32,347 nt of DNA from NCBI GenBank assembly GCA_017551505.1, contig JAFZLL010000007.1, positions 1-32,347 of the forward strand, in the 5' to 3' direction. Positions 18,843-30,985 of the stretch are shown in pieces; position 1 is the first letter of the stretch; each line of letters begins with the position of its first letter. Below the pieces are notes generated by a model. It was given only the letters and a program-made list of their open reading frames with translations. It was not told the DNA's origin and did no database searches. The stretch comes from Eubacteriaceae bacterium (GTDB taxonomy: Bacteria > Bacillota > Clostridia > Eubacteriales > Anaerofustaceae). The translations under genes were made by a program, and so were the position numbers.

Positions 18843-18995
18843 AGTTATAGGGCTAAATAAAACCGTACTGAAGCCCAATGATGTCTGTTATTTATATGAT
18901 GACCAGTCGGTATTGACAAATGAAAGTAGGCACTCTTTTAGTACGTAATGAAATGAAGACACTAGCATTTTAGCTGTTGCTTTTGTAGTTTGAGA

Positions 18996-19680
<685 letters not shown>

Positions 19681-19696
19681 TAACGAGAATTTGGAA

Positions 19697-19841
19697 AAGT
19701 GTACCTTTTGAAAGTGTACAATCCATAAATATTTTACCAAGACACGTTGTATTTTACAATGAAGGACATTTCAAATATACAAAAAAACATCATATATTCC
19801 CATGCCGATTTTAATTCTTGAAATTATCAAAAGGTACACTT
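19697..19841. repeat. 145-base segment bounded by perfect 15-bp inverted repeats
   Basis: AAGTGTACCTTTTGA at 19697-19711 is the exact reverse complement of 19827-19841. A further direct AAGTGTAC half-copy lies at 19712-19719. The segment lies between the serine recombinase gene and the start of the zinc-ribbon gene. It contains a - strand promoter (19731-19759). The simplest readings are an invertible promoter segment, a recombinase binding/crossover region, or a MITE-like element. Confidence 0.7.
19731..19759 (-). promoter_or_regulatory. Promoter inside the inverted-repeat segment, pointing left
   Basis: On the - strand: TTGTAA (19754-19759), a 17-base spacer and TAAAAT (19731-19736). As drawn it fires toward the recombinase, antisense to it. 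If the segment flipped, the boxes would fall near 19779-19784 and 19802-19807 and drive the gene at 19867. A weaker + strand candidate (TTGAAA 19818-19823, TAAAAA 19841-19846) spans the right repeat. Confidence 0.5.
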
Positions 19842-19866
19842 AAAAAAAGAAAGGAATAGAATTGAT

Positions 19867-20760
19867 ATGGCCCTGATTAAATGCAATATCTGCGGGGAAC
19901 AAGTAAGCGATAAGGCAAAGGTCTGCCCTCATTGCGGTACGGAACTAATTGAAGAAACTACTCCTGACCCACTTATTTGTGAAGAGTGTGGAAATGAAAT
20001 ACCTGGAGGGAAGGATCACTGCCCAAAATGTGGATGCCCTGTTTACCAAGAGAAAGAGGAAGATGAAATGAGGGACGAGTTTAATGAGGAGATTAAGAGA
20101 GGCAACAGTAAGAAAAAGCTAATCCCGATTATTACTGGTGCTACTATTGCGGTTTTATTTCTTGTCCTTTTATTAATTCTGCGTGGCATTCCGGTGTCTG
20201 AAGTATCTCTTAATAAAAAATCTTTGACTATAACTGAGGGTAAAACGATGATGCTTGTATGTACAGTGACTCCTGATAATGCCAAGAACAAATCGCTCAC
20301 TTGGAAGTCTTCAAATGAAGCGGTTGCAAGAGTAGATGAGGTTGGCACTGTTACTGCTGTGTCTGAGGGAACCTGTAAAATCACAGTAACTTCTTCTAAT
20401 GGGAAATCGGATGAGTGCGACATCACCGTGGAAAAAGCTGGACCAGATTTTAAAGCATTATATAACAAATATTGCAAATCAACATGGTCATCTTATGGAT
20501 CTGACGGGAGTTTTTTATTTATTGATACGAATCCATACGATATTGATGATACAGGGATTGCTTATATTGAAGCGTATTTGGCAATTAGAAATATTAATAC
20601 TGCATTAGGACTTCCATCTTCATTAATTAATGATATGGGGAATACAACTGCCTTAATGGGTAGACAGTCGGAGACTTTTAGTAACGTTGGAGTCACTGTA
20701 ACTTGGACATATCATCCAGATAAAGGACTTGAAGTGACTTATAAAGCAATTAACAAATAA
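19867..20760 (+). CDS. Zinc-ribbon membrane protein with Ig-like (BIG2) domain
   Basis: 297 residues. Two zinc ribbons at the N-terminus (C6, C9, C20, C23; then C38, C41, C52, C55) are followed by an acidic linker, one membrane helix (about 85-106), a BIG2-type Ig-like domain (about 108-190, with LTITEGKTMMLVCTVTP and WKSSNEAVARVDEVGTVTA) and a C-terminal domain of about 100 residues that I do not recognise. With the basic KKK just before the helix, the zinc ribbons should be cytoplasmic and the Ig domain outside. The ribosome binding site is mediocre (AAAGGA, about 12 bases). Function unknown; possibly a sensor or surface protein. Its composition is A+T-richer than the core genes, which suggests transfer. 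Confidence 0.85.
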   Translation: MALIKCNICGEQVSDKAKVCPHCGTELIEETTPDPLICEECGNEIPGGKDHCPKCGCPVYQEKEEDEMRDEFNEEIKRGNSKKKLIPIITGATIAVLFLVLLLILRGIPVSEVSLNKKSLTITEGKTMMLVCTVTPDNAKNKSLTWKSSNEAVARVDEVGTVTAVSEGTCKITVTSSNGKSDECDITVEKAGPDFKALYNKYCKSTWSSYGSDGSFLFIDTNPYDIDDTGIAYIEAYLAIRNINTALGLPSSLINDMGNTTALMGRQSETFSNVGVTVTWTYHPDKGLEVTYKAINK

Positions 20761-20784
20761 ACAGAGCATTAGATGTTGCGTCGG

Positions 20785-20807
20785 CGATATATGACTGTAT
20801 CGTTTTT
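20785..20807 (+). terminator. Weak intrinsic terminator
   Basis: CGATATA (20785-20791) pairs with TGTATCG (20796-20802), including one G-T pair, loop TGAC, followed by TTTTT. It lies between the two zinc-ribbon genes, so the second may be only partly co-transcribed. Confidence 0.45.
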
Positions 20808-20839
20808 ATTGTACAGATTGTTTAGTATAGGAGGTAAAA

Positions 20840-22642
20840 ATGCTTATTAATTGCCCAAACTGCAGTAAGGATTATTCTAATACCGTAGACGAATGTCCTC
20901 ACTGTCATTTTCATCCAGTTGCTTTTATTTGCAATGAATGCTCAGAAGTATTCTATGGGCCTGAAGGACACTGTCCCAAATGTGGCAACTTAATACAGAA
21001 TGCTATTCCTGCAAATAAGGATATTCTTGAAGATATCCGCACAGAAATCATAGAACGTGTTGAAAATGCACAGAACACGGAAGAAATGGCGTCCTTTAAA
21101 AGCAAATACTCTCTTTTGAAGGGATACAGAGACATAGATGAACTTGAGGCATCATTTATAGCCAAGATGAATCAGTTGCAGGAGATAGAGGATAAACATC
21201 ATCAGTATGATGAAGCTCTTGCTGCATTTGAGAACGCTGAAACTGTAGCTGATTACGAGAAGCTCAAAGAAGTCTTTGAATGTGTTATCGATATGGAAGA
21301 CGCTGAAAAGTACGTCTCAGAGTGTGCGGAAAAGATTACCATGCTGAAGTACGAAGACTCTTGCGCCAGAATGTTGAAAGCGAAAAAGAAAAAGGAGTGG
21401 AAAGAACTTCAGAAAACGTTCGCTTCTATTTCGGATTATCTTGACGCTTCGGAAATGGCGGATAAATGTGGATTGGAGCTGAAAAACAGAAAAAAGAAAA
21501 GTGCGATAACAACCGCGTCAGTCTTATGCTGTGTATTGATTCTTGCTTTTTTGACATATTTCGTTTTTATCCCTGGGTATCATTATTTCAGTGGAATGAA
21601 ACTGTATAAATCCGGCTCGTATGAGGAAGCGATTGATCAGTTTACTTCCGCTGGAGGATTCAAGGATGCAGAGGAATCGATAGGCATGTCATACTATGCA
21701 TGGGGTAGCGAAGATCTCGACGTCAAGCACAGTTATCAAGATGCTGTGGATCATTTCACTGCTGCGGGAGAATATGAAGATGCTTCCAATCGTATCCTTG
21801 AGACCTACTATAAATGGGGAATGAGCATAGTAGGAAAACCCGACAGTAAATCTGATGATGATTATCAGCAGGCAATCAATCTTCTCAAAAAGGCAGGAGA
21901 CTATCCAGATGCCAAAGAACAATACTATAAATGTAATTACGACTATGCTTTGAAACTATACCTGTCGGAGAACAATGAAAAGGTACTTAAAGCAGAGTCG
22001 TATTTCAAGATTGCTGTTCCACTTTTTGAGGATGCCTCTATGATGGCAGATAACTGCAAATATGCATCTCAGTTTATAAAAGCTATGGACGAGTACAAGA
22101 AGGGCAATCTAAATAAGGCGCAGACTGCTTTCGCAGATATCCCCTCAGATTTCACGTACAAGAACTATAAAAGCACTGGTATATATAAATCCCTACTCGA
22201 AAAAAACTCAGTCTTTGTCAAAATGTGCGGGAGATGGGAAGCGACAGGCGATAACCTTGCGTATGTATGGCAGATTTCTAAAAGCAGCGGATACTATTAT
22301 TACTGGTACACAACATACACCGATCCTTCAGATTATCTGGACATCAAATGCGTCATTAACGATGATGGTACCGTTACGATAAAAGGAAGTGCGGAATACT
22401 ATGTGCAGACAAGATATTCATCCATCGCAGAGGGTCTTAGAGAAGCTCACAAGAGCGTCTCATTTGAAAAAACAGTATCCTCAACTCCTTCAAAACTATC
22501 AATATACGACAATGTGAAACTGTCATATACGGGAAAAGGATTCGATCTGACATATTCATATGTTGATAATTCGTCGAGCGTATATTTCAAATATAAGTAT
22601 GAGAGTTTTTGGCATTACAAAAACAAGAAACAGTCATATTAA
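20840..22642 (+). CDS. Double zinc-ribbon membrane protein with TPR-like repeats
   Basis: 600 residues. The N-terminal zinc ribbons (C5, C8, C19, C22; C31, C34, C45, C48) precede a charged helical cytoplasmic region (about 60-218), KKK and a membrane helix (about 222-244). Outside the membrane come TPR-like repeats (about 250-420) with recurring patterns such as GSYEEAIDQF, HSYQDAVDHF and DDDYQQAINLL, then a tyrosine-rich beta-type C-terminal domain (about 450-600, GRWEATGDNLAYVW onward). A strong AGGAGGT lies 5 bases before the ATG. It shares its layout with the preceding gene and with the DUF6273 remnant. Such proteins are common in Clostridia without known function; a sensory or envelope role is inference. 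Confidence 0.85.
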   Translation: MLINCPNCSKDYSNTVDECPHCHFHPVAFICNECSEVFYGPEGHCPKCGNLIQNAIPANKDILEDIRTEIIERVENAQNTEEMASFKSKYSLLKGYRDIDELEASFIAKMNQLQEIEDKHHQYDEALAAFENAETVADYEKLKEVFECVIDMEDAEKYVSECAEKITMLKYEDSCARMLKAKKKKEWKELQKTFASISDYLDASEMADKCGLELKNRKKKSAITTASVLCCVLILAFLTYFVFIPGYHYFSGMKLYKSGSYEEAIDQFTSAGGFKDAEESIGMSYYAWGSEDLDVKHSYQDAVDHFTAAGEYEDASNRILETYYKWGMSIVGKPDSKSDDDYQQAINLLKKAGDYPDAKEQYYKCNYDYALKLYLSENNEKVLKAESYFKIAVPLFEDASMMADNCKYASQFIKAMDEYKKGNLNKAQTAFADIPSDFTYKNYKSTGIYKSLLEKNSVFVKMCGRWEATGDNLAYVWQISKSSGYYYYWYTTYTDPSDYLDIKCVINDDGTVTIKGSAEYYVQTRYSSIAEGLREAHKSVSFEKTVSSTPSKLSIYDNVKLSYTGKGFDLTYSYVDNSSSVYFKYKYESFWHYKNKKQSY

Positions 22643-22710
22643 GTCGTATTTCAATGTAGTTGGAATGTGTCCTGGTTGTGTGATTTGATAATTACAAAGC
22701 TCAAGCGTAA

Positions 22711-22854
22711 TCTGGAAAGAATAATGCATTCGGATTTCATTCGGCATCCATTGTTCCCTTCACCAAAAAGAAATATGACTTTCATCATTATTGCATCGTG
22801 TTACTGGTTCTAATAGTTTTGATTTTTATATTACCTGGAGAAACAACAAGTTGA
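22711..22854 (+). pseudogene. Relic N-terminal membrane anchor of the DUF6273 gene
   Basis: In the same frame as the next gene, codons from 22711 read through KKKYDFHHYC and a clear membrane helix (IVLLVLIVLIFIL) and end at a TGA (22852-22854) directly before that gene's ATG. An in-frame TAA at 22708-22710 blocks extension upstream. A basic KKK, a helix and then a repeat/DUF6273 region mirrors the intact neighbour at 20840, so this is most likely the lost front end of a zinc-ribbon/TM protein. Confidence 0.55.
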
Positions 22855-23670
22855 ATGAGTGGATTGTTACTTAAGGAAATCGGTAAAAACGATATAATTG
22901 TTTCAAACAAATATGATAGGGCAATGGCTTTGATCGATTCCGGTGATTACGAAGAAGCTTTTGTTTTATTGAAAGGTCTTGATTATCGAGACAGCGCTGA
23001 TAAACTGGAAAGTATTAAGACGCAATATGAAATAAGTAAGCTGTCAAAGGCACAGGTTGGCGATTATGTGATTTTTGGGTCATACGAACAGAACAACAAT
23101 ACATCCGATGGTAAAGAGGAGATAGAATGGCTGGTACTGGCAAGAGAAGGAGATCGAGTATTACTAATCAGCCGGTATGCGCTTGATTATCAGTCTTACA
23201 ACTCTTGGAAAAGCGTGACCTGGGAAAAATGCTCTTTACGTAAATGGCTAAATGGGACTTTTATCAATAACGCTTTCAGCACTAACGAACAAGCAATTAT
23301 CCAACGTACAACTGTTACAGCGGATAAAAATCCGCAATACAATACTTCTCCGGGGAATAGTACAACGGATAAAGTATTTCTTTTGAGCATTAAGGAAGCC
23401 AATAAGTATTTCAGTTCTGACAAAGCAAGACAATGCGAACCAACAGCGTATTGCAAATCAGCAGGAGCATTTAAAGATTATCAGTTCAATTGCAATTGGT
23501 GGTTGCGATCGCCTGGTGATGGTTCTGAAAATGCTGCTATTGTACAAGATGACGGTTCTATCAAATACGACGGTATTATTGTCGAAAACGTTAATTTAAA
23601 CTTCGGTTACCTTGTCACCGTAACAACTGGCACTGTCCGCCCCGCTTTATGGGTAAATCTTGAGCAATAG
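22855..23670 (+). CDS. DUF6273-domain protein, probably 5'-truncated
   Basis: 271 residues. A short helical TPR-like start (YDRAMALIDSGDYEEAF, about 19-35) leads to a DUF6273 domain (about 65-271) with its hallmarks: IEWLVLAREGDRVLLISRYALD, LRKWLNGTFINNAF, WWLRSPGD and VRPALWV. The domain is lectin/formylglycine-like in appearance, and its function is unknown. No ribosome binding site fits the ATG: GGAG is 14 bases away and the preceding codon is TGA. Without its membrane anchor (see 22711-22854) it may be silent or a cytoplasmic fragment. Confidence 0.65.
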   Translation: MSGLLLKEIGKNDIIVSNKYDRAMALIDSGDYEEAFVLLKGLDYRDSADKLESIKTQYEISKLSKAQVGDYVIFGSYEQNNNTSDGKEEIEWLVLAREGDRVLLISRYALDYQSYNSWKSVTWEKCSLRKWLNGTFINNAFSTNEQAIIQRTTVTADKNPQYNTSPGNSTTDKVFLLSIKEANKYFSSDKARQCEPTAYCKSAGAFKDYQFNCNWWLRSPGDGSENAAIVQDDGSIKYDGIIVENVNLNFGYLVTVTTGTVRPALWVNLEQ

Positions 23671-23815
23671 CTTTTGAAATCTGAACGGAAACCAACTGAT
23701 GCTTGTTATAAGAATTATTACCAGCGACATCAGCGAATGAATGAATTATTGTCTTATGATACTAAATAGTATTGAGGCGTCTGAGTTTTACATGGGGTTT
23801 TATTGATGAGCCAGT

Positions 23816-23920
23816 AAAGATGACCGAAAAACGGAAAAGAGACGTTCTTTCAGTCATCTTTCAGTTAATGAAAAAACAGGAAGATAAGATGGAAAACACG
23901 GTCTAAGGATACGTGAGGAA
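23816..23920 (+). repeat. Direct repeat, right copy (degenerate recombinase leader)
   Basis: It repeats the order found at 18996-19099: AAAGATGACCG, a hairpin (ATGACCG at 23820-23826 with AGTCAT at 23852-23857, now imperfect), AATGAAAAAA, a purine-rich AGGAAG, ATGGAAAACA and GGATACGTGAGG. Many substitutions and a few small deletions separate the copies. Confidence 0.7.
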
Positions 23921-24023
23921 TAAGCTGACGAAGATTAAAAGTAAATGCATAAAAATAGATGATTTTATAGACAAGACAAAATTGAGAAATCTCATTGAAA
24001 ACAGTGTCGATCAGCTTAGATGA
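23889..24023 (+). pseudogene. Remnant of a second serine recombinase
   Basis: The frame begins ATG-GAA-AAC like the intact recombinase ([10 protein letters not shown]) but reads MENTV, then TAA, then GYVRNKL. It continues 38 codons past the stop to a TGA (24021-24023) with weak resemblance (IDDFIDKT against IYMDKLSG). The catalytic RVS serine and everything after the first 30 residues are missing. The upstream leader is also duplicated, so this is homology and not chance. Confidence 0.65.
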
Positions 24024-24188
24024 AATATAATCTTTCCTGAATGTGATAAGGTTGCCTGAGAGATCAGACTACTGGACAGGAACAGATTCAAAAGTATATT
24101 TATGATTTAATATCCCTTTGCCCGTGATTTGAATGGACTGGATGTCGGTTTTATTATGGCAAATGATACAATGGTTTTCATTTTCGTT

Positions 24189-24216
24189 TTGTAGCGCATC
24201 TGCGGTAGGATATAAT
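24189..24216 (+). promoter_or_regulatory. Promoter of cmk-plsC-ispH/rpsA
   Basis: TTGTAG (24189-24194), a 16-base spacer and a perfect TATAAT (24211-24216), about 38 bases before cmk. A hairpin TGCATC/GATGCA (24221-24235) lies right at the expected transcription start and could be an operator. Confidence 0.65.
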
Positions 24217-24253
24217 GAGATGCATCGCGGATGCAAACGGAGTATAGTGTTTT

Positions 24254-28520: not shown

Positions 28521-28620
28521 ATCATGACTATGTCTACTGATCCATCGTCTGATGGTGTTCAAACTATTTGGGCATAGAAATACAAGTGAGATGGCATATA
28601 AAAATGCCAAGGAGGACTTT

Positions 28621-29841
28621 ATGCAAAAGACGATTTGCGAGTTATTCGCAGGCGTCGGTGGTTTTCGATTAGGATTCGACCGACTTAACTCCGGCTGGGA
28701 GACAACATGGTTCTCTCAGTGGGAACCCGGTGCTAAGACACAATGGGCACACGATTGCTACGTTAAACATTTCGGAGATTCACCTGATCTTGTAGGTGAG
28801 TACCACACTTGCGAAGATATTGCTGATGTAAATAAAGAGAATATTCCGGACCATACGCTTCTTGTTGGTGGGTTCCCTTGTCAGGATTATAGTGTGGCAC
28901 ATACTCTCGCTTCTTCCAAAGGTATCGAAGGGAAAAAGGGTGTTCTCTGGTGGCAAATCAGAGACACGATGATTGCTAAAAAGCCGCCTTTCTGCATCTT
29001 TGAAAATGTAGATAGGCTTCTTAAGTCGCCTGCAAAACAGAGAGGCCGAGATTTTGGAATGATCCTTGTCTGTCTGTATGAACTGGGCTATTCAGCTGAG
29101 TGGCGTGTTATCAATGCGGCTACTTATGGGGCTGCCCAAAGAAGAAGGCGGACTTTCATTTTCGCATATAAAAACGATACCGAATTTGGTAAAAGCCAGC
29201 TCGGAAAAACTGCTTCAGAGATTCTCCTTACAGAAGGAATGATGGCTAAAGCATTCCCAATCAGTGCTATCCTCTCTTCAAAGGAGACTGTTTTAAGCAC
29301 GGATCTTGTAGATGTTTCTGATCATTTCGCGTTCGATTTTAGGCAAGCTGGTTTTATGACCGAAGGAAAGGTCTTCACAGCAGATGTGAACGAAATCGAA
29401 GAACAACCTATCCTTCTTGGAGAGATTTTAGTAAAGGATGCCGATGAGCAGTTCTTTATCACTGATGATGAGCGCATGGCGAAATGGGTCTATCTGAAAG
29501 GGGCCAAGAAAATTCCCAGAAAATCCGCAAACGGCCATGAGTATATCTTTTCTGAAGGACCTATCGCATTTCCGGATCCATGGGACAGACCGAGTAGAAC
29601 GATGCTTACAAGCGAATCCACGTTGAATAGAAGTACGCATGTAGTGGCAGACCCTCGGACAGGAAAGCTCAGAATCCTGACCCCGGTCGAAGCTGAAAGG
29701 CTTCAGGGCTTTGATGACAACTGGACAGACACCGGAATGCCCCAAAGGATGCGCTTTTTCTGTATGGGTAATGCATTGGTCGTACCTATGATTACACGGA
29801 TGGGAAACGTCCTTGATTCGATTATCGAAAAAGAAAATTAG
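28621..29841 (+). CDS. DNA (cytosine-5-)-methyltransferase, Sau3AI type
   Basis: 406 residues. It methylates C5 of cytosine in a short DNA target and protects it from the cognate nuclease. Motif I is ELFAGVGGFRLGF (about 7-19), motif IV GGFPCQDYSVA with catalytic C87, motif VI FENVDRLLKSP with ENV at 128-130, motif VIII QRRRRTFIF, then the target-recognition region, RLQGFDDNWT and the C-terminal GNALVVPMITRMG. The overall pattern (KGVLWW, LLKSPAKQRGRDFG) resembles the GATC-type M.Sau3AI/M.LlaKR2I group as I recall it, so GATC is the likely target by inference. AAGGAGG (28609-28615) sets the ATG at 28621; in-frame ATGs at 28552 and 28594 lack such a site. Confidence 0.93.
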   Translation: MQKTICELFAGVGGFRLGFDRLNSGWETTWFSQWEPGAKTQWAHDCYVKHFGDSPDLVGEYHTCEDIADVNKENIPDHTLLVGGFPCQDYSVAHTLASSKGIEGKKGVLWWQIRDTMIAKKPPFCIFENVDRLLKSPAKQRGRDFGMILVCLYELGYSAEWRVINAATYGAAQRRRRTFIFAYKNDTEFGKSQLGKTASEILLTEGMMAKAFPISAILSSKETVLSTDLVDVSDHFAFDFRQAGFMTEGKVFTADVNEIEEQPILLGEILVKDADEQFFITDDERMAKWVYLKGAKKIPRKSANGHEYIFSEGPIAFPDPWDRPSRTMLTSESTLNRSTHVVADPRTGKLRILTPVEAERLQGFDDNWTDTGMPQRMRFFCMGNALVVPMITRMGNVLDSIIEKEN

Positions 29842-29857
29842 TAACTGAGGTGGGCTT

Positions 29858-30985
29858 ATGGCAGGCTATCTAATCACACTTAATGATGAGAGCTCTCTTG
29901 CTGAAATCGTGAAAAGCGGCTTTTATAGCACTATCATGAGCTCGCCACAGTATTCTTCGTGGGGAATTTCTCATGAGGGGACTTTTGCTGATTACTTAAG
30001 TATGAAAGCTGGAGATTTTGTTTTCTTTTTCGTAAAAAGAAAGATATATGGCTGCGGCAAGCTGGTGAATGTCGGAAGTGATTGCAAGTATCTAAACTAT
30101 ACTAAAGCGGGAATACCAAAAGGTGATCAAACCGATAGTTATGCAAATACTCGACTGATTGAATCCGGAAATAGCGGGAATAGGTGCTTTTGTACGTTTG
30201 TTCCTAATCCTGCTTTTTTCAAAAAAGGCATTGATATGGATGCCATTCTCCAAAACAAAGACAATCCTTTTAGATCTGTCCGCACTCTCTGGAAACTATC
30301 TTTTATAAAGATGGATGATGATGAAAGTGATGCGCTTTTTCGCGTTTTGATGAAAGTCAACGAGGACAATATCAATAACACGGAAGCTCAGTTTGCTTTT
30401 AATCAAGCATTCCATTCCAGATTATCTCGTCTTGTTCTTTATGAATACAAGCTGCAAAGACAATTCCTCATTTCTTCCTGTAAAGACGCAAGAACTAATC
30501 GTCTTAAGCATGAAATGGCATTAGAAGCTGCATTATGCGAAATCCTTTCAAATGAAGAGCGAGAGCCCTTTGGAAAATGGGATTATATCTCACATCAAGT
30601 CGCCGCTTCTCCTTTTAAGCCTATAGATTACATGGACAAAATGGATGTTTTCGGGTATCGATACATTCCCGGATATGACGTTAAGTCCAAATATCTGATT
30701 GCAGAATTAAAAAAGGATTGTGCATCTACCGACATCGTTGAGCAAATCATGAAGTATGTAGATTGGGTATCGAATGAATATGCAAACAAGGACTATTCCA
30801 TGATAGAGGCCTATATCATTGCTTCGGATTTTGATGACGAGGTAAAAGCACTGGTCAAAGAGCATTGTATCAGGAACTTCACAAAAGGCTTCAGGCCAAC
30901 AGAGTTCTGCGTGTGGAATAATCTTAAGATGGTCAGATACGAAGTCGTCGATGATGACATTGCTTTTTCGGTTGTTGAGGCTTAA
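29858..30985 (+). CDS. Probable modified-base reader fused to a PD-(D/E)XK nuclease
   Basis: 375 residues, co-operonic with the methyltransferase (16-base gap, GAGGTGG ribosome binding site). The N-terminus (about 1-150) looks EVE/PUA-like: MAGYLITLND, then AGDFVFFFVKRKIYGCGKLVNVG, the strand pattern of modified-base or RNA readers. The C-terminus (about 215-340) looks like a NucS/DUF91-type PD-(D/E)XK nuclease: E219 or E223, MDVFG with D263, LIAELKKD with E283 and K285, and EQIMKYVDW with a Q296-x-x-x-Y300 motif as in RecB-type nucleases. No membrane segment is present. I infer a second, possibly methylation-sensing, nuclease of the operon. Domain calls are by eye and moderately sure. Confidence 0.7.
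   Translation: MAGYLITLNDESSLAEIVKSGFYSTIMSSPQYSSWGISHEGTFADYLSMKAGDFVFFFVKRKIYGCGKLVNVGSDCKYLNYTKAGIPKGDQTDSYANTRLIESGNSGNRCFCTFVPNPAFFKKGIDMDAILQNKDNPFRSVRTLWKLSFIKMDDDESDALFRVLMKVNEDNINNTEAQFAFNQAFHSRLSRLVLYEYKLQRQFLISSCKDARTNRLKHEMALEAALCEILSNEEREPFGKWDYISHQVAASPFKPIDYMDKMDVFGYRYIPGYDVKSKYLIAELKKDCASTDIVEQIMKYVDWVSNEYANKDYSMIEAYIIASDFDDEVKALVKEHCIRNFTKGFRPTEFCVWNNLKMVRYEVVDDDIAFSVVEA

Follow-up and report, generated by a model that had tools for sequence, protein, structure and literature searches.

The window analysed here is a stretch of 32,347 nucleotides from a gut-type Clostridia genome of the Eubacteriaceae (contig JAFZLL010000007.1). Within it, a small serine recombinase gene is followed by a pair of inverted palindromes with a promoter between them, and then by genes that probably form one three-gene transcript (19867–23670). 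The features are as follows.

18843–24253, plus strand: 5.4-kb block of low GC inserted between an HI0933-like gene and cmk, delimited by comparison with genomes G001 and G006.
19069–19680, plus strand: small serine recombinase of 203 aa (Pfam Resolvase, 1e-26), the proposed invertase of the adjacent site pair.
19690–19713, unstranded: left recombination site TTTGGAAAAGT-GT-ACCTTTTGAAA, a palindrome matched to the family site; core GT at 19701–19702.
19703–19835, unstranded: proposed invertible segment between the cores, whose 135-bp spacing lies on a family helical-phase peak (134–138).
19710–19719, plus strand: additional GAAAGTGTAC half-copy, seldom present in relatives.
19731–19759, minus strand: sigma70-type promoter TTGTAA-17-TAAAAT; -35 at 19759–19754, -10 at 19736–19731, TG before the -10.
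19825–19848, unstranded: right recombination site TATCAAAAGGT-AC-ACTTAAAAAAA; core AC at 19836–19837, inverted relative to the left core.
19867–20760, plus strand: proposed phase-variable gene 1, with a DZR double zinc ribbon and a Big_2 Ig-like domain (Pfam) and a transmembrane segment (by inspection).
20840–22642, plus strand: gene 2 of the probable operon, with a zinc-ribbon-like N-terminus and a transmembrane segment (by inspection).
22855–23670, plus strand: gene 3 of the probable operon, DUF6273 (Pfam).
23677–23918, plus strand: second, decayed copy of the region that spans the recombinase leader and start codon (64.6% over 246 bp to 18859–19098, E 7e-17).

The recombinase, the switch and the three genes all lie on the insertion, which has a GC content mostly of 0.34–0.42, compared with 0.44–0.53 around it. 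The corresponding gap between the HI0933-like gene and cmk is ~0.57 kb in the same-genus genome G001, with no recombinase match, and less than 0.1 kb in G006. Gene 1 begins 25 bp past the right repeat and carries the zinc-ribbon and Ig domains that the first-pass annotation had read in it; gene 2 had no Pfam match. The decayed leader copy sits at the end of the insertion, just before cmk, and contains a hairpin resembling the one upstream of the intact recombinase (18994–19044). Another contig of the same genome (L002; G000:C49:37594-40741) carries, at 1310–1648, a decayed recombinase 3' end and a switch with cores TT/AA, in the same orientation as the window segment and followed by zinc-ribbon-like and DUF6273-type genes. 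These decayed copies show that duplication and loss of the recombinase-switch unit have taken place in this genome. Elsewhere in the window (28552–30985), an ORF resembles by eye a C-5 cytosine DNA methylase and is followed by a possible restriction-type partner.

The presence of two short inverted repeats in a 5.4-kb block that is itself a low-GC insertion might suggest a MITE or the end of a mobile element with terminal inverted repeats, and a MITE had been offered as an alternative in the first-pass annotation. However, the segment does not lie at the ends of the insertion, a check of its own genome for scattered copies found just two, the second beside the decayed recombinase, and in relatives the site pair adjoins a recombinase gene, all of which makes this explanation highly improbable.

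The ORF directly upstream of the segment is, as had been proposed, a serine recombinase gene. Its product combines a Resolvase domain, catalytic Ser and Arg residues and a C-terminal helix-turn-helix (HTH), the last seen by inspection, and so fits the small serine recombinases; residues S12, R10, R70 and R73 are invariant among 11 relatives. The closest solved structures are the Sin and gamma-delta resolvases, and the protein is nearer to Sin of Tn552/Staphylococcus aureus (2r0q, 5e-27) than to the solved DNA-invertase entries (2e-14). The NCBIfam model of the Mpi master invertase (NF009949) gave 41.4 bits, below its curated cutoff of 272.

Perfect 15-bp inverted repeats were found at 19697–19711 and 19827–19841, in agreement with the earlier description. 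The window contains three perfect 15-bp inverted pairs no more than 320 bp apart, compared with one in 60 dinucleotide shuffles of the whole window. The functional unit, however, is larger than these 15-mers. When 30 related recombinase loci were set side by side, the 15-mers proved to be the common part of two longer palindromes, TRTCAAAARGT-NN-ACYTTTTGAYA, of which the window has two 24-bp copies with cores 135 bp apart. This is the form of a dimer site at which a serine recombinase crosses over within a central 2-bp core. In this class of enzymes, rejoining follows the polarity of the cores, and the inverted cores GT and AC therefore predict inversion rather than deletion. The segment is intergenic and bounded by inverted recombinase sites, the arrangement expected of a promoter inverton. 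The outer half-sites, TTTGGAAAAGT and ACTTAAAAAAA, are the weaker ones and fall below the family consensus. The extra AAGTGTAC half-copy reported at the left end is indeed present, and a similar sequence occurs in the decayed copy L002; among 116 loci, though, only the window itself (L008) and L081 carry it, and given this rarity the suggested accessory site is not a general one.

Related recombinases, 48–79% identical and from other Clostridia, very often have the same site pair right after the stop codon. A first set of loci was used to build the site model and later loci formed a held-out set, from which any copy matching an earlier locus at 99% identity or more was removed; a pair was counted if it passed the score threshold and lay no more than 450 bp from the recombinase stop. 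The pair score of the first scan included a bonus for inverted similarity, which was dropped in the held-out test, and the result held. A site pair lay just 3' of the recombinase in 73 of 130 held-out loci, compared with 3 of 685 control stretches drawn from both sets. The adjacency of the recombinase and its sites is thus kept in relatives at the level of sequence. Counts made over relatives lack phylogenetic independence. Under this site model, about 44% of the related recombinase loci have no pair; different site sequences or loss of the switch may account for some of them. A close relative of the recombinase was present in 69 of 400 and 51 of 397 genomes of two families, whereas viral contigs were a poor source, yielding two site pairs with two spacing patterns. 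At one locus (L168; G822:C1:1979026-1980438), two convergent recombinase genes flank a single switch segment. The segment DNA alone, used as a query among relatives, retrieved only the copies of its own genome and two matches of ~30 bp, and none of the 13 genomes of family f1 was close enough for comparison of the window segment.

The orientation of the cores bears on a second alternative. The first-pass annotation had named a resolvase binding site; in the fuller form considered here, the site pair is a regulatory or resolution site of a Sin-like resolvase, no inversion occurs and the leftward promoter serves antisense or autoregulatory transcription. The structural kinship with Sin and gamma-delta resolvases speaks for it, as does the prevalence of the leftward promoter described below (67 loci vs. 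8). Instead of directly repeated crossover sites, however, the 73 held-out pairs comprise 62 with inverted asymmetric cores, 1 symmetric, 2 direct and 8 mixed, and the two sets together yield 110 inverted and 5 direct cores among 115 informative cases, which predicts inversion (binomial p ~8e-27, to be taken as a guide since related sequences are not independent). Resolution or deletion is accordingly unlikely. The mirror-image promoters presented below also count against this alternative, and the inversion between L009 and L171, with breakpoints in the sites, largely refutes it, leaving it very little probability.

The distances between cores are also ordered. Core-to-core spacing peaks at 115, 126, 136, 147, 157, 167 and 177 bp, close to one of which lies the 135 bp of the window. 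A period of 10.5 bp was recovered in 50 loci thinned at 80% recombinase identity (R=0.63) and in the held-out set (R=0.78, compared with a maximum of 0.39 in 5000 jittered sets). Such helical phasing is what a requirement for face-to-face contact of the two sites across a short loop would produce.

The leftward TTGTAA-17-TAAAAT promoter described inside the segment is present on the minus strand. Scored with approximate matrices written for this analysis, it is modest (score 8.6, nine of 12 consensus positions), but it is predicted to be active, and its -10 ends 28 bp from the left core, the position typical of the family. The best-placed promoter of the window as assembled faces away from the operon, which on this reading of the sequence is the OFF state. 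By coordinate arithmetic, inversion would bring the -10 to 19802–19807, ~60 bp before the ATG at 19867, so that in one orientation the inner promoter could read into the neighboring gene. Across the family, a sigma70-type promoter directed toward the recombinase and placed 25–32 or 35–42 bp from the left core was found in 67 of 116 loci (shuffle null ~1.6), with the end of the -10 mostly at 28–29 or 37–39 bp, while a mirror-image promoter directed toward the downstream gene was found in eight of 116. This excess of OFF orientations in assembled genomes is greater than expected for a freely equilibrating switch; a possible reason is that transcription runs antisense into the recombinase gene.

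Opposite orientations have been found among relatives, in the mirror-image promoters and in the pair L009 and L171, while the window species is represented by one assembled orientation. The genome with L009 belongs to the window's family, that with L171 to another. Their flanks are collinear, with 82% identity over 2151 bp on the upstream side, a stretch that takes in the recombinase, and again over 36 bp on the downstream side, whereas the DNA between the cores is 95.8% identical but reversed, so that the promoter points leftward (OFF) in L009 and rightward (ON) in L171. The breakpoints lie inside the sites because the inner half-sites have exchanged places. A MobA/MobL relaxase gene lies just upstream of the recombinase in L171, with homologous DNA in L009, and the recombinase-switch unit therefore probably moved horizontally. 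The genes downstream differ between the two loci, which, together with the relaxase upstream, suggests that the switch stands at the edge of a mobilizable element. Orientation is the same within groups of close relatives (L024/L025, L044/L049/L052/L064, L149/L155 and L089/L182).

A further explanation is that the segment is a former inverton now locked OFF by decay of its outer half-sites. Their divergence from the consensus fits this idea, and the related copy L002 and the tail of the island are clearly decayed. The recombinase ORF, on the other hand, is intact with its catalytic residues, the core and flanking positions fit, and neither the spacing nor the promoter position departs from the family norm, so that locking is improbable, though less so than the alternatives considered above. 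The interpretation proposed at the outset, that the segment is an inverton, is instead supported by the recurrence of the layout in relatives, including the held-out set, by the L009/L171 inversion and by published inversions of the same layout. Counting against it are the single orientation seen for this segment, shared by the decayed copy L002, the modest promoter, the weak outer half-sites, the ~44% of loci without a pair, the OFF bias and a nearest solved relative that is a resolvase. On balance, we assign a probability of roughly 0.88 to the window segment being an inverton, a promoter-inversion switch assembled in the OFF orientation and acted on at its 24-bp palindromes by the recombinase of 19069–19680. 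The neighboring recombinase is very probably able to flip the 135-bp promoter segment and so to turn the small operon on or off. In the proposed mechanism, recombinase dimers would bind the two palindromes and synapse over the 135-bp loop, both sites would be cut at the 2-bp core, and the inner 133 bp would be rejoined in the opposite direction. The OFF promoter would point left, antisense into the recombinase 3' end; in the ON state, the inverted promoter would read rightward across the right site into 19867–23670.

In the relatives, the first downstream gene is co-oriented in 101 of 110 loci. Recurrent Pfam families among 91 first genes are TnpB-like proteins (TldR group), BspA-type leucine-rich repeats, zinc ribbons, MBOAT and other acyltransferases, AMP-binding enzymes and glycosyltransferases; flagellin, cohesin and a DNA methylase are examples of products that occur once. 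A simple heuristic called a signal or membrane segment at the N-terminus somewhat more often in first genes (36 of 95) than in neighboring ORFs (16 of 68), which is weak evidence. TnpB-like proteins with altered RuvC motifs, of TldR type by eye, directly follow the switch in L044, L064, L091, L139, L204, L226 and other loci, and csrA and flagellin genes come next in several of these. In a subgroup with 115-bp spacing near csrA-tldR-flagellin genes, a pattern search found FliA-like promoters, leftward in L044, L049 and L064 and rightward in L091; that of L208 is rightward by eye.

The closest known counterpart is in Flavonifractor plautii, in which inversions of ~120 bp follow ‘hin’ genes in the layout seen in the window, with a small serine recombinase gene and a short invertible promoter segment immediately downstream; csrA-associated TldRs with hin are already published, and the idea of a phase-variable TldR is not new (2026 paper, PMC13418256). 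The Oscillibacter-like loci L044, L049, L052, L064, L091 and L208, likened to that system by its description, share its architecture and type of site and have 113–115 bp spacing. The published system uses a FliA-dependent promoter and csrA-tldR-flagellin targets, whereas the window has a sigma70-type promoter, a zinc-ribbon/Ig/DUF6273 operon and 135-bp spacing. Salmonella Hin and phage Gin, the flagellar and tail-fiber invertases, resemble the proposed system in that a serine recombinase inverts the DNA between two palindromic sites in inverted orientation, each with a 2-bp core. The Hin segment is ~1 kb and contains hin and the Fis enhancer; in the window, unlike Hin/Gin, the recombinase lies outside a segment of ~135 bp. 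Sin, the closest solved structure, is a resolvase; the window, by contrast, has inverted sites, and its relatives show inversion. Mpi of Bacteroides is a serine invertase of surface-gene promoters, from which the window recombinase differs in its position beside its own switch and in matching the NCBIfam model only weakly. The RecV switches of Clostridioides difficile and hCom2 inverton group 139 are likewise short intergenic invertible segments near surface or regulatory genes in Clostridia, but they depend on tyrosine recombinases, unlike the serine class of the window (PMC11892184; PMC5903667), and the best recombinase link reported for Clostridia is of the tyrosine type (PMC11892184). Searching the literature for the site sequence brought up nothing of relevance, and no description of the family-wide anatomy (helical phasing and OFF bias) was found.

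These comparisons allow a broader and more tentative proposal, which we regard as possible but short of probable, that the widespread Sin-like recombinases of Clostridia and their helically phased mini-switches constitute a horizontally moving phase-variation cassette that is OFF-biased by its own design and is placed before unrelated surface and regulatory genes. In such a cassette, the OFF promoter would be antisense to the recombinase and might, for example, slow further flipping. For the locus itself, an inverted repeat that looked like chance can now be tested as an ON/OFF switch, and such switches become predictable from assemblies alone by means of the site consensus and the spacing rule. 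The recombinase-plus-switch unit recurs in gut Clostridia before genes for surface proteins, glycan- and acyl-transfer enzymes, flagellin regulators and a DNA methylase.
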